A DNA stretch of 64,000 bases from Aurantibacter crassamenti (GTDB lineage Bacteria > Bacteroidota > Bacteroidia > Flavobacteriales > Flavobacteriaceae). How positions within the stretch are numbered: the stretch's first letter is position 1; each line of letters begins with the position of its first letter. This document shows, piece after piece, positions 12,613 through 16,143 of this stretch. Position numbers and translations under genes: made by a program. Below the pieces are notes generated by a model. It was given only the letters and a program-made list of their open reading frames with translations. It was not told the DNA's origin and searched no databases. The DNA is taken from contig NZ_JAFBGM010000001.1 in NCBI RefSeq assembly GCF_016811105.1, positions 2,881,714 through 2,945,713 of the forward strand. The letters run 5' to 3'.

Positions 12613-12750
12613 AGCACAACGGTCTCGTATAACCGTCAGTTACGGGTTTTAAGTTACTGTTTTTCGATTAAGCACTGGCGTTAGCAATTCCGAGTGGATT
12701 CGGACGTAGTCGAATCCGCCGTAATTGTGGTTATACATTGTTGTACAACG
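12613..12750. repeat. Cassette-boundary imperfect inverted repeat D (attC-like), near-twin of E
   Basis: The left arm GCACAACGGTCTCGTATAAC and right arm GGTTATACATTGTTGTACAA form a clear imperfect palindrome with inner ends AGTTACGGG and CCGTAATT. The spacer contains GATTAAGCACTGGCG and an inner hairpin built on GGATTCGGACG and CGAATCC. It is almost identical to repeat E over its length although the genes between them are unrelated. It ends 4 bases beyond the stop codon of the broken lipoprotein gene. Confidence 0.8.
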
Positions 12751-12754
12751 TACT

Positions 12755-13440
12755 TTATTTTTCATTATCGATAAACCAAGGTTGTTCAAATTCCGTTGTT
12801 TTTTTCAATTCCTTTTCTAATTTCTCTCGGTCTAATTCCAATTCCGAATATTCTGCTCGTTCGTAGAGTAGGTTATAAGCTGATTGATTAAGTCCGTATT
12901 TTTTTAATTTATAAAAATCAGATTCCGCTTTTTTAGAATTCAGATTTTCGTTTTGAAATTCAATTTTTAAAAGGTCAACCAATGTGTCATTTACAAACTG
13001 GTTTTCATAGTTCAGCTGTCTTTCATCTAATTTCATTGAGTTGAATTCTCGGATTATTTCATAAACGATTGAGTCGTTTTTCTCCGTTTTTCTGCGATTC
13101 CAAAATTCAGCGTAATATTTGGTTTGTATTCCTGGTTTATTATAAGTCAATTCCAGACTGTCAATTAAATTCTGGAAATTTAAATTCCTTGAATTAAAAA
13201 TTCGTTGTCGCTTTTAAAAATCAGGTTTTCGAGTTTGTCGTAACCAAATTTTTTAAATGATTCGTGAACCATTTTTAGATTTTCAGGTTTTTTAATCCAC
13301 GAGTTTTTTGTCCAGTCTCCATTTCTCAAATCGAAGAATGAAGTTTGGTTTTCTGCATAAAATTCCAATTCAGATTTCTTATCGTTTTTACAAGACAGAA
13401 ATAAGAAAATCAGAAGTGAAATTGTCAGCAGTTTGTTCAT
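12755..13440 (-). pseudogene. Small lipoprotein gene split by a frameshift
   Basis: Two minus-strand frames abut. The upstream one starts at 13440 with a lipoprotein signal (MNKLLTISLLIFLFLSCKND) and ends at 13180 after NEFLIQGI. The downstream one (12755-13150 from its first ATG) reads back in frame as NLIDSLELTYNKPG directly from the end of the first. Adding one base in the T-run near 13200 would join them into one protein of about 230 residues, so this is most simply one frameshifted gene. No known family was recognised; the second half is charged and helical (LELDREKLEKELKK). A sequencing error in the homopolymer is an alternative. The original start lies 9 bases from repeat E and the stop 4 bases from repeat D. 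Confidence 0.7.
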
Positions 13441-13449
13441 TTCGGGTAT

Positions 13450-13589
13450 GTTGTACAACGGTCTCGTATAACCGTCAGTTACGGGTTAATATGCGTTAAT
13501 TTTCGGTTTAGCACTGACGTTAGCAATTCCGAGTGGATTCTGACGTAGTCGAATCCGCCGTAATTGCGGTTATACATTGTTGTAGCACG
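13450..13589. repeat. Cassette-boundary imperfect inverted repeat E (attC-like), near-twin of D
   Basis: The left arm GTACAACGGTCTCGTATAAC and right arm GGTTATACATTGTTGTAGCA pair as an imperfect palindrome. The interior repeats that of site D (AGTTACGGG, TTTAGCACTGACG, TTAGCAATTCCGAGTGGATT, CCGTAATT) with a few substitutions and a short indel. It separates the lipoprotein remnant from the TIR gene and ends 4 bases beyond the TIR stop codon. Confidence 0.8.
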
Positions 13590-13593
13590 TTTT

Positions 13594-14538
13594 TTAAAAT
13601 GGTAAATCGTCATAATCCTCTTCTTTAGCTTTTTCAAATGATTTTAGACTTAATCCATCCAATTTATATTTCCACGCTATTTCATTAAAAGGATTTAGAA
13701 ATCTAGTTTCTTTCAGGTTTTCATTATCAGTTATTTTGTCCTGTAAGTATTCAACTTTTTCTTTCGGTAAATCTTTAATTTTCCTCAGCGCTTTTAGTCT
13801 TTCAATTCCTTGATTAGCCGTGTTTGAAAGTAAAATTAATTCTACAAGAGTATTCAAGTATTTAGTTTTTGTCTTCTCGTTTCTAGAAATAATTTCAAAT
13901 ATTCCTTCTGCTACTTGACCTACATTTTTTCCGATTGCTTGAAATCCTTGATATTTTCCAATAAATCCATAAGGGTCAAGTCCTCGGCGAATAGGTATAA
14001 TTAATACATTTCTACCAACAGCAACTCCAACTTCTTGGTCAGTCCAATTACTTTCTTTAAATCCTTCCATTAATACAGCACAAAAAGCGTCCATTGAAAA
14101 TAGTCCTTTTTCTATTTCGTCCTGCCATTGTTTTGTTGGTTCAATATCTTCGTGTGCTACAAATGATGAAATTCCATATTTTTCCAGTTCTGCTTTTAGA
14201 ATTCCAATTGTTTTTTTAAAACTTGCTAAATGACTAACAAAAAGTTTAAAATGTCCAGGTTTCCAAAATGTCGCTTCACTTTCTTTTACTTTAACAGGAA
14301 TTGAAGAAACAGCTTCGTGTTCAATTCCTAATTCAGATGCAATTTCTAATACAATTTCATCTTTTACTTTCGGTAAAACTTCCTTAACATAAACGTATTT
14401 ACTGTTGTAACTTGGTTGGTGGTCAGTTGGTATTCCGTAACTTTCAAAATAGCCATCAATTTCGTTGAACTTCATTCTTTCTTGAAGTTCTCTTCCGATT
14501 TTATCTATTAATTCTATTTTTTGCAGTTTCTTCATCAA
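13594..14538 (-). CDS. TIR-domain protein, candidate NAD-degrading defence effector
   Basis: A 314-residue protein. Residues 1-95 are an N-terminal region of unknown fold. Residues 97-215 match a bacterial TIR domain: FKLFVSH is strand A, YGISSFVAHEDIEPTKQWQ covers strand B and the BB-like loop, and SNWTDQEVGVAVGR contains E169 at the position of the catalytic glutamate of NADase TIRs. The C-terminal 100 residues are charged and of no recognised family. Bacterial TIR proteins often act in antiphage defence by hydrolysing or cyclising NAD; whether this one does is inference. It is the cassette at the right edge of the array, bounded by repeat E and a half-site. ATG occurs twice at the start (14538, 14535). 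Confidence 0.82.
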   Translation of the reverse strand: MMKKLQKIELIDKIGRELQERMKFNEIDGYFESYGIPTDHQPSYNSKYVYVKEVLPKVKDEIVLEIASELGIEHEAVSSIPVKVKESEATFWKPGHFKLFVSHLASFKKTIGILKAELEKYGISSFVAHEDIEPTKQWQDEIEKGLFSMDAFCAVLMEGFKESNWTDQEVGVAVGRNVLIIPIRRGLDPYGFIGKYQGFQAIGKNVGQVAEGIFEIISRNEKTKTKYLNTLVELILLSNTANQGIERLKALRKIKDLPKEKVEYLQDKITDNENLKETRFLNPFNEIAWKYKLDGLSLKSFEKAKEEDYDDLPF

Positions 14539-15357: not shown

Positions 15358-15378
15358 GTTTTATTGCTTTAACAAATG

Positions 15379-15435
15379 TAGCGAGAGTGGGACTTGAACC
15401 CACGTCCGCCTATGGCGGATATGAATCCTCCACGC
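15379..15435 (-). pseudogene. tRNA-Met 3'-fragment, copy 1
   Basis: On the minus strand this reads from AGCGT at the end of the D-arm through an anticodon arm keeping CAT (GGATTCATATCC), an altered variable region with the hairpin TCCGCC-ATA-GGCGGA, and the complete T-arm and acceptor 3' strand (GTGGGTTCAAGTCCCAC, TCTCGCTA). The 5' acceptor strand and D-arm are absent, so it cannot form a tRNA. It begins directly after the GIY-YIG stop codon. Confidence 0.8.
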
Positions 15436-15684
15436 TTATAAATAGTTTTTACGAATCCATGCCCTTCCAGCACCAGTTTTAAAGAATTTTTCTCTTTTTA
15501 AAGCATCACTTTTATTATTGAAAAACTCAACATGTACAACCATCCAAGGTCTGTATTTAATGGTGTACCCTTTAGTAGCAAGTGAGTTGTGCGATTTAAA
15601 TCTATCAATTAAATTGGTAGTAAACCCTTTGTAAAATTTGTCATACTTTTTAGAATACAATATATAAACGACAAATTCATCCAT
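15436..15684 (-). CDS. Small GIY-YIG nuclease-family protein, copy 1
   Basis: An 82-residue single-domain GIY-YIG protein of the UPF0213/YhbQ-like group. The signature is VVYILYSKKYDKFYKGFT (the tyrosines of both half-motifs kept, YKG for YIG). It is followed by the arginine in LIDRFKSHN and the glutamate in DALKREKFFK, the usual catalytic set. The frame can be extended two codons to a TTG, but ATG at 15684 is preferred. It differs from copy 2 visibly at only one residue (Phe instead of Leu in EKFFKTG). It lies directly before a tRNA-Met fragment and after a terminator hairpin, an arrangement suggesting a tRNA-targeting or homing-like element; activity is inference. Confidence 0.85.
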   Translation of the reverse strand: MDEFVVYILYSKKYDKFYKGFTTNLIDRFKSHNSLATKGYTIKYRPWMVVHVEFFNNKSDALKREKFFKTGAGRAWIRKNYL

Positions 15685-15694
15685 AGACAAAAAT

Positions 15695-15722
15695 AAAAAA
15701 GCTCCCCGTAAAGGGAGCTTTT
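15695..15722 (-). terminator. Hairpin terminator of unit 1
   Basis: On the minus strand AAAAGCTCCC pairs with GGGGAGCTTTTTT, followed by T-rich sequence. It lies between the tRNA fragment of unit 2 and GIY-YIG copy 1, about 11 bases before that gene's ATG. It has one more base in the stem region than the equivalent hairpin next to the intact tRNA. Confidence 0.75.
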
Positions 15723-15724
15723 AG

Positions 15725-15781
15725 TAGCGAGAGTGGGACTTGAACCCACGTCCGCCTATGGCGGATATGAATCCTCCACGC
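15725..15781 (-). pseudogene. tRNA-Met 3'-fragment, copy 2
   Basis: Identical in visible sequence to the fragment at 15379-15435: anticodon arm with CAT, inserted TCCGCC/GGCGGA hairpin in the variable region, and intact T-arm and acceptor 3' strand. It starts directly after the stop codon of GIY-YIG copy 2 and lacks the tRNA 5' half. Confidence 0.8.
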
Positions 15782-16030
15782 TTATAAATAGTTTTTACGA
15801 ATCCATGCCCTTCCAGCACCAGTTTTTAAGAATTTTTCTCTTTTTAAAGCATCACTTTTATTATTGAAAAACTCAACATGAACAACCATCCAAGGTCTGT
15901 ATTTAATGGTGTACCCCTTAGTGGCAAGTGAGTTGTGCGATTTAAATCTATCAATTAAATTGGTAGTAAACCCTTTGTAGAATTTGTCATACTTTTTAGA
16001 ATACAATATATAAACGACAAATTCATCCAT
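15782..16030 (-). CDS. Small GIY-YIG nuclease-family protein, copy 2
   Basis: An 82-residue GIY-YIG protein with the same features as copy 1: VVYILYSKKYDKFYKGFT, LIDRF and DALKREKFLKTG. The nucleotide sequences of the two copies differ at a handful of mostly silent positions, so the duplication is recent or the copies are kept alike by recombination or selection. The ATG at 16030 lies about 12 bases beyond the terminator hairpin that follows tRNA-Met, so any transcript from the tRNA promoter must read through that hairpin. No separate promoter was recognised. Confidence 0.85.
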   Translation of the reverse strand: MDEFVVYILYSKKYDKFYKGFTTNLIDRFKSHNSLATKGYTIKYRPWMVVHVEFFNNKSDALKREKFLKTGAGRAWIRKNYL

Positions 16031-16040
16031 AGACAAAAAT

Positions 16041-16067
16041 AAAAAAGCTCCCGTAAAGGGAGCTTTT
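16041..16067 (-). terminator. Hairpin terminator after tRNA-Met
   Basis: On the minus strand AAAAGCTCCCTTTACGGGAGCTTTTTT forms a stem of about ten pairs with a short loop and a T-run, three bases after the tRNA 3' end. It would end tRNA-Met transcription just before GIY-YIG copy 2. Confidence 0.8.
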
Positions 16068-16069
16068 AG

Positions 16070-16143
16070 TAGCGAGAGTGGGACTTGAACCCACGGCCTC
16101 CGGGTTATGAATCCGACGCTCTAACCAGCTGAGCTACCTCGCC
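16070..16143 (-). tRNA. tRNA-Met (anticodon CAT)
   Basis: A 74-nt cloverleaf on the minus strand: acceptor 5' strand GGCGAGG, D-arm GCTCAGCTGGTTAGAGC, anticodon loop TTCATAA, T-arm GTGGGTTCAAGTCCCAC, acceptor 3' strand TCTCGCT and discriminator A. CCA is not encoded. G1-U72 and G7-U66 are wobble pairs and the top anticodon-stem pair is A-C. G1 with a paired 72 argues for elongator rather than initiator tRNA, but a CAT anticodon could also be the lysidine-modified tRNA-Ile2, which sequence alone does not exclude. A consensus promoter lies 20 bases upstream. Confidence 0.9.

Follow-up and report, generated by a model that had tools for sequence, protein, structure and literature searches.

Tandem GIY-YIG nuclease genes and hairpin-bearing tRNA remnants beside tRNA genes of Bacteroidota: a candidate homing-like element

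What kind of element leaves small nuclease genes and broken tRNA copies directly behind an intact transfer RNA (tRNA) gene? The question is raised by a stretch of 64,000 nucleotides from Aurantibacter crassamenti (Flavobacteriaceae, Bacteroidota; contig NZ_JAFBGM010000001.1, positions 2,881,714 to 2,945,713), referred to here as the window. Downstream of an intact tRNA-Met lie two head-to-tail units of 346 bp, identical at 340 of 345 aligned positions, each composed in order of a terminator-like hairpin, an 82-codon gene for a GIY-YIG nuclease and a 3′ remnant of tRNA-Met that starts directly behind the nuclease stop codon. An earlier note on this DNA had described an intact tRNA-Met followed by two such units, with the tRNA fragment beginning right after the stop, and both points were borne out when the reading frames and remnants were located (the first gene ends at 15782 and its remnant runs from about 15781). 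The features are listed below in window coordinates.

16069..16143, minus strand: intact tRNA-Met (anticodon CAU, elongator-like; ARAGORN; Rfam tRNA model, 65.3 bits)
16043..16067, minus strand: terminator-like hairpin in the gap between tRNA-Met and nuclease copy 1; the congeneric genome G002 has a similar hairpin after its tRNA-Met
15782..16030, minus strand: GIY-YIG nuclease gene copy 1 (ATG at 16030), 82 residues; catalytic residues kept, fold predicted to be Slx1/UPF0213-like
15724..15781 (about), minus strand: tRNA-Met 3′ remnant 1, about nt 24-38 plus about nt 48-75, by sequence comparison
15751..15765, minus strand: palindrome TCCGCC-ATA-GGCGGA in remnant 1
15697..15722, minus strand: terminator-like hairpin of unit 2
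15436..15684, minus strand: GIY-YIG nuclease gene copy 2 (ATG at 15684), 82 residues, one residue different
15378..15435 (about), minus strand: tRNA-Met 3′ remnant 2
15405..15419, minus strand: palindrome in remnant 2

The hairpin in front of the nuclease gene has, in both units, the look of a terminator for the tRNA. Each remnant follows the tRNA sequence to about nucleotide (nt) 38, is interrupted by an insert, and follows the tRNA again from about nt 48-49. The insert, TCCGCCATAGGCGGA at 15765-15751 and 15419-15405, is the perfect palindrome TCCGCC-ATA-GGCGGA, a feature absent from the earlier note. That account had the remnant keeping the anticodon arm, of which only the 5′ side to about nt 38 is present, and had the nuclease gene replacing the 5′ half of the tRNA; the functional tRNA is in fact complete. 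No frame of 40 residues or more in the 346-bp unit is long enough for an integrase, and the nuclease is its sole recognized gene.

Both nuclease copies matched PF01541 (E 1.2e-15 for copy 1 and 2.2e-15 for copy 2), with scores of 57.2 and 57.9 bits against a curated cut-off of 22.6 that place them in the GIY-YIG family; no other Pfam family rose above cut-off in the window nuclease, and no named NCBI family was found for the single copy searched. Y9, Y20 and R30 are invariant in 32 sequences and E67 is kept in at least 90%; we take these Tyr, Tyr, Arg and Glu residues to be catalytic. The predicted structure is a single compact domain (mean predicted local distance difference test score 92). 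It is closest to UPF0213 and Slx1 (for Slx1, template modeling score 0.66-0.71 by query length, Foldseek E 2e-3 to 8e-3), with weaker likeness to I-TevI; no Foldseek match of the model reached E 0.001 or better, and by sequence UPF0213 (1ywl) was matched at E 3.5e-5. The predicted fold thus appears related to that of the branched-DNA nuclease Slx1. No DNA-binding domain was recognized beyond the nuclease domain in this 82-residue protein, in which PF01541 spans residues 6-72 of the 84-residue frame.

The same genome holds six PF01541 matches: two long frames (605 and 462 residues), the two window copies, and a second tandem pair that stands directly after tRNA-Phe in the same layout, one of its copies being frame-broken. 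The tRNA-Phe remnant between the copies of this pair carries CCCCGATGCTTCGGGG in its T loop. Since the tRNA-Phe pair repeats the layout, and the pattern recurs in many genera, the arrangement in the window is not a chance one. The hairpin TCCGCC-N3-GGCGGA has only two further exact copies elsewhere in this genome (positions 1501-1515 of both L012 and L013), one within ribonuclease P (RNase P) RNA and one in a helix of an S-adenosylmethionine (SAM) riboswitch.

The window protein found matches in 285 of 395 genomes of the family. We read 98 family loci, which are clusters taken from the most similar to the window protein downward rather than at random, leaving aside repeat views (L160, L161, L178, L167, L168) and a 690-residue match in G082. 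Among these matches listed, a tRNA gene lay within 300 bp at 83 of the 98 loci, on the nuclease strand in 83 of 83; the remaining 15 included two with a tRNA at 309 and 433 bp, and tRNA remnants occurred in 10 of the 14 that were scanned. A profile of 32 tRNA-type nucleases matched 260 of 392 Bacteroidota genomes. At 41 loci outside the family (21 automatic and 20 hand-picked, among the matches listed), a tRNA lay within 300 bp at 39, always on the nuclease strand (39/39), adding tRNA-Cys and further Leu, Pro, Arg and Ser isoacceptors. By a rough estimate of about 45 tRNA genes per 3.5 Mb, such proximity would arise at about 1% of places, and chance neighborhood is ruled out by 83/98 and 39/41 loci, all same-strand. 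Five relatives came from named genomes: a Sphingobacteriales and a Cyclobacteriaceae metagenome-assembled genome have the window layout (at tRNA-Asp and tRNA-Pro, respectively), and the loci of the three non-Bacteroidota relatives (Bacillus, Melainabacteria and Peptoniphilus) contain no tRNA. Cargo of phages or plasmids was rejected, with matches to the window protein in 0 of 50,697 phage records and 1 of 72,556 plasmid records; viral contigs gave one short match. No PADLOC family was matched, and identity with a defense system was rejected.

Across these loci there are two mirror layouts, in which the tRNA stands upstream and a 3′ remnant downstream, as in the window, or a 5′ remnant stands upstream and the tRNA downstream. 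With the 3′ part searched only where the tRNA was upstream and the 5′ part only where it was downstream, a truncated copy of the same tRNA was found across the nuclease at 87 of 108 loci with a tRNA within 320 bp (100 shuffles). A perfect hairpin (arm of at least 6) was present in 61 of 99 distinct remnant regions vs. 56 of 1980 control regions from the same loci. Fold energy was below -15 kcal/mol in 75 of the 99 vs. 28 of 600 controls, and 28 of the 38 remnant regions that lack a perfect hairpin still fold below this value. In hairpins of the window type the stem is nearly constant and the loop variable, with one paired change (TCCGTC/GACGGA). TCCGCC-loop-GGCGGA sits at nt 37/38 in most loci with tRNA-Met upstream, CCTGCC..GGCAGG sits at nt 22 in several Arg loci, and some hairpins, several of them at Arg loci, are cleanly inserted into the tRNA copy, as in the five loci that read GGATA-hairpin-GAATA at nt 22. 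Hairpin edges fell on stem/loop junctions in 18 of 45 left and 13 of 37 right cases vs. 19% of positions, related rows not being independent and 16 left and 24 right edges of the 61 hairpins not being placeable on the tRNA; from these alignments, breakpoints at tRNA stem/loop junctions appear only modestly enriched. Tandem units are frequent, with a maximum of eight nuclease copies at one locus (L253).

Two other arrangements were seen beside these. At L315, L321 and L023, hairpin-bearing 5′ parts of a tRNA stand beside the intact tRNA with no nuclease gene, in tandem arrays at L315 and L023, as if they were non-autonomous units. At L094, two GIY-YIG genes lie downstream of a transfer-messenger RNA gene (415 bp), with further short palindromes around.

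The earlier note had named homologues mostly lacking tRNA fragments as the observation that would speak against a tRNA-linked element. For close relatives the concern falls away, given the fragments at 87 of 108 tRNA loci, whereas for small GIY-YIG genes at large it holds. Among the PF01541 matches listed for short frames in 60 family genomes, a tRNA lay within 300 bp at 18 of 102 confirmed-nuclease loci (24 of 108 with six own or congeneric loci included; the overlapping views L047/L066 and L050/L128 count twice here and once in the remnant counts). Three further loci have remnants and no tRNA, and L125 adds a tRNA-Pro remnant judged by eye. A good part of the rest belongs to a separate, hairpin-flanked GIY-YIG type. 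Of 83 genes labeled non-tRNA, which include L125 and also L081 with a tRNA-Asn nearby, 33 have a hairpin upstream, 34 downstream, 22 on both sides and 45 on at least one. The hairpin family follows the nuclease clade in the 30 assignable of the 83 (8 changes vs. 17.2 shuffled), families being defined by patterns of our own and the other 53 having no assignable hairpin. One family, ATTCCTGC-N4-GCAGGAAT, reached a maximum of 36 copies per genome, the reversed control giving zero, and was present in 12 of 20 chosen genomes. L069, L078, L097 and L111 are among the tRNA-free small GIY-YIG genes flanked by clade-following hairpins. In the tRNA-type units, a single end bears a hairpin.

For the most part, each nuclease lineage is restricted to a single tRNA isotype and a single side. 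On a tree of 188 nucleases, with 101 tRNA loci scored (L023, L084, L172, L179, L185, L216, L229, L231, L236 and L250 are absent through a length cut, and the tRNA labels of L051, L086 and L054 were assigned by hand), the amino-acid identity of the tRNA combined with side required 22 changes vs. 68.6 when shuffled (minimum of 500 shuffles, 60), and side alone required 6 vs. 33.7. The window lineage occupies both elongator and initiator tRNA-Met, the latter judged by eye, and an anticodon-arm sequence is common to the two. A different CAU tRNA is occupied, in the mirror layout, by another nuclease lineage.

The earlier note had also foreseen tandem units and empty sites in relatives, and both exist. 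A search for yqeY in 60 family genomes gave 59 matches, of which 30 loci were read: tRNA-Arg follows yqeY without a nuclease in 28, one locus is occupied (the query itself) and the last lacks a tRNA there. Of the other 29 yqeY loci, three or more are occupied (L110, L124 and L254 in G037, G038 and G019), and the nuclease distribution at these loci is patchy. In occupied loci of the mirror type, the 5′ remnant stands where the tRNA would be behind yqeY. At L283, one of the 28, a 5′ remnant with TCCGCCTTTGGCGGA lies next to the nuclease-free tRNA-Arg, and this hairpin-bearing remnant looks like a scar. Strict co-inheritance of the nuclease with the neighboring yqeY found no support: their identities correlate with r 0.11 (171 pairs, 19 loci), and the nuclease is the more similar in 10 pairs. 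As with homing genes, the nuclease stands at or near its presumed target tRNA and empty alleles exist (tRNA-Arg behind yqeY; tRNA-Met in G002). The congener G002 has the tRNA-Met with its terminator-like hairpin and no match to the window protein, but its downstream genes differ, which makes it a weak empty-site comparison for the window locus itself.

A further group of loci carries a common boundary. Six places in five genomes match tRNA-fMet only from nt 32 to the end and are preceded by AT-rich DNA. Among the loci collected, the 5′ stem is absent in 7 of 47 distinct CAT-tRNA 3′ halves, all of which start at nt 32, where the anticodon loop begins, and a nuclease follows five of these seven. 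A split or trans-spliced tRNA was set aside as an explanation, since each of the five genomes retains a full-length tRNA-fMet elsewhere.

On balance, we lean toward the view that these units are homing-like selfish elements of tRNA genes, in which the nuclease attacks tRNA genes, a carried half completes the tRNA and the units multiply in tandem. The autonomous unit would combine a GIY-YIG gene, about 80 codons long, with a partial tRNA gene. Its Slx1-like nuclease would cut tRNA-gene DNA at a stem/loop edge, probably in the anticodon loop in the tRNA-Met lineage and in the D-arm in the tRNA-Arg/Ala lineages, and the element would be inserted through repair from an element-bearing copy. The imported tRNA half would complete the interrupted gene; since a replacement half is brought in, the tRNA gene would stay functional and the host would retain a working tRNA. 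The displaced native half would stay behind as the hairpin-bearing remnant, with the hairpin marking or blocking the cut site and perhaps serving as the recognition target of the nuclease. Renewed breaks and recombination between tRNA copies would give rise to tandem units, and 3′ halves that stand without a nuclease (L319 and L322) would be relics, although a function of the tRNA half in its own right is also conceivable. The earlier note had proposed an element that inserts into a tRNA gene and restores its 3′ half. The tie to tRNA genes and the pairing of an intact tRNA with a leftover part stand, and the restriction to the 3′ half does not, as the mirror form carries a 5′ half.

Several observations weigh against this interpretation. 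Neither cleavage nor movement has been observed, and cleavage, homing, repeated insertion and mobility are what we infer from the arrangement of the loci. Homing endonucleases have a DNA-binding region besides the nuclease domain; the 82-residue protein is predicted to be the catalytic core alone, which leaves its choice of one tRNA gene unexplained. The terminator after the first tRNA in the window resembles that of G002, and tandem duplication fits the locus as well as insertion does. The weak correlation between nuclease and yqeY could stem from fast, saturated change. At eight tRNA-Asn loci (L081, L214, L226, L232, L234, L238, L245 and L250) a nuclease lies 120-310 bp downstream on the same strand, and no remnant was detected; seven of them form one nuclease clade, L250 being absent from the tree. 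L319 and L322 (position 1501 in each) have a solitary tRNA-fMet 3′ half from nt 32 with a terminator-like hairpin behind it, and the flanking DNA contains no nuclease for about 1.5 kb in both directions, so that a 3′ half with this start does not depend on a nuclease beside it, and may be a relic or have a separate cause. The seven loci with a 3′ half only come from five genomes and four genera, and thus represent fewer than seven independent events: two from G149 look paralogous, two are from G231 and two from one genus. Only 25 of 185 inner branches of the nuclease tree are well supported, and with this poor resolution we rely on clustering rather than on single forks. Finally, the TCCGCC/GGCGGA hairpin is not confined to the window lineage. 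In 119 genomes, the seven presumed carriers of the Met lineage have 4, 4, 24, 8, 0, 12 and 1 copies, and it also occurs in 20 of 112 non-carrier genomes, one with 23 copies, the reversed control matching two of the 119; the stem is present in a separate tRNA-Arg nuclease lineage as well. Its presence outside the window lineage means that another agent may mobilize the hairpins. In G088, a genome outside that lineage, 21 of 22 listed TCCGCC-N3-GGCGGA copies (genome total 23) fall within about 57 kb (G088:C1:73533-130901).

A wider form of the homing-like reading is possible, and we offer it tentatively. A structure-guided system may exist in Bacteroidota, in which a minimal Slx1-like nuclease reads stem-loop shape over sequence and cuts genes of structured RNAs at stem/loop edges, its own hairpin serving as terminus or mark. 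The tRNA units and the hairpin-flanked elements would then be two branches of one system, and the solitary hairpins (in RNase P RNA, the riboswitch and intergenic DNA) together with the nuclease-free tRNA halves would be its non-autonomous offspring, making it a GIY-YIG counterpart, established in tRNA genes, of the repetitive extragenic palindromic (REP) sequences and their REP-associated tyrosine transposases (RAYTs).

The dispersal of the hairpin can also be read as the mark of two independent parasites, a tRNA-associated mobile GIY-YIG gene and REP-like hairpins moved by another enzyme, which land in useless remnants while intact tRNAs do not tolerate them. The copies in non-carrier genomes, the two extra copies in RNase P RNA and the SAM riboswitch of the window's own genome, and the variation of hairpin position within the tRNA between lineages are all in its favor. 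Yet hairpin type and position tend to track the nuclease lineage across many genera, and the hairpin-flanked relatives show the same coupling in their 8 vs. 17.2 changes, which makes two unrelated parasites unlikely.

It seems improbable that the nuclease serves the host or its defense by amplifying or editing tRNA dosage in the manner of SegB, with benefit from additional or changed tRNA, or from expression of a tRNA half, for example against a tRNA-cleaving defense. The tandem tRNA and nuclease units speak for such a function, T6 SegB, likewise a GIY-YIG enzyme, drives an amplification of this kind (PMC13096335), and the two nuclease-free tRNA-fMet 3′ halves with terminator-like hairpins would also suit it. 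However, the extra tRNA copies are truncated at 87 of 108 loci, so that tRNA dosage would not rise, and the absence of a PADLOC match and the patchy distribution argue against it as well.

Action on RNA appears more doubtful still. Here the nuclease would cut a tRNA or its own tRNA-linked transcript, hairpin remnants would protect or regulate the message, and the loci with a 3′ half would be copies of cleaved tRNA. Remnants and nuclease lie on one strand and may form one transcript, the hairpins disrupt the tRNA fold, and the 3′ halves start in the anticodon loop, which tRNA-cutting enzymes often cut. Against this, the hairpin follows the nuclease in one layout and precedes it in the mirror form, which is odd for a single role in RNA; empty and occupied sites are DNA events; and GIY-YIG enzymes, Slx1 and UvrC among them, have DNA as their substrate. 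An origin from ordinary integrative islands with the tRNA 3′ end as attachment site can be dismissed, for although tRNA genes are common integration sites and 3′ parts would be left at them, an integrase is missing from the 346-bp unit, the remnants contain a hairpin, the mirror form retains a 5′ part and the loci with only a 3′ half begin inside the anticodon arm.

Elsewhere in the window, minus-strand frames at 12649-12789 and 13479-13637 have a peptide in common (YGGFDYVRIHSELLT...), which suggests a DNA repeat flanking small gene modules. A 314-residue frame at 13594-14538 presumably encodes a TIR-type protein, judged by eye from a motif.

If the homing-like interpretation is correct, a tiny nuclease parasite inhabits essential tRNA genes throughout a large phylum and leaves its host unharmed by bringing half a tRNA along. 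It would represent a third principle for life inside a tRNA gene, besides introns and integrases, and would account for the broken tRNA copies and tandem small GIY-YIG genes of many genomes. It would also supply naturally occurring nucleases of some 80 residues, linked to different isotypes, in which the choice of target is open to direct test.

How does the unit compare with known systems? The earlier note's impression that it belongs to no named class agrees with the portion of the literature covered by our searches, in which no description of the arrangement was found. UPF0213 and Slx1 resemble the window nuclease in predicted fold and catalytic core, but Slx1 works with a partner, Slx4, and we know of no tRNA linkage for these proteins. 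I-Ssp6803I is reportedly the endonuclease of a group I intron in tRNA-fMet. That system involves intron splicing, whereas here no intron family was found over the window at the Rfam gathering threshold, tRNA-Met is uninterrupted, and the carried half would complete the tRNA. RAYT genes are flanked by inverted REPs, and RAYTs are transposases of the IS200/IS605 tyrosine type (PMC2817692). The likeness lies in hairpin repeats tied to one enzyme lineage, in dispersed solitary hairpins and, for part of the non-tRNA relatives, in hairpins on both sides. The differences are that the enzyme here is GIY-YIG, the only family above Pfam cut-off in the nuclease, rather than a tyrosine transposase, that a tRNA replaces one end in the tRNA type, and that the accessible text of PMC2817692 has no tRNA-completing half bearing a hairpin. 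CGTC-tagged REP repeats occur in Bacteroidetes among five phyla, in an account whose available portion does not mention GIY-YIG (PMC3733652). SegB of phages T4 and T6 is a GIY-YIG homing endonuclease of the free-standing kind, whose gene lies next to tRNA genes of many isotypes and drives tandem amplification of tRNA and segB in T6 (PMC13096335). It shares with the window unit the GIY-YIG domain, the lack of an intron, the position beside tRNA genes and the tandem repeats of tRNA and nuclease. It differs in being phage-borne, with no hairpin-bearing tRNA half or mirror forms described in the text consulted, whereas the window unit is chromosomal. The recurrence of the arrangement at many different tRNA genes of the Bacteroidota suggests a type of selfish DNA not described in the literature searched, one that would inhabit tRNA genes and leave them working.

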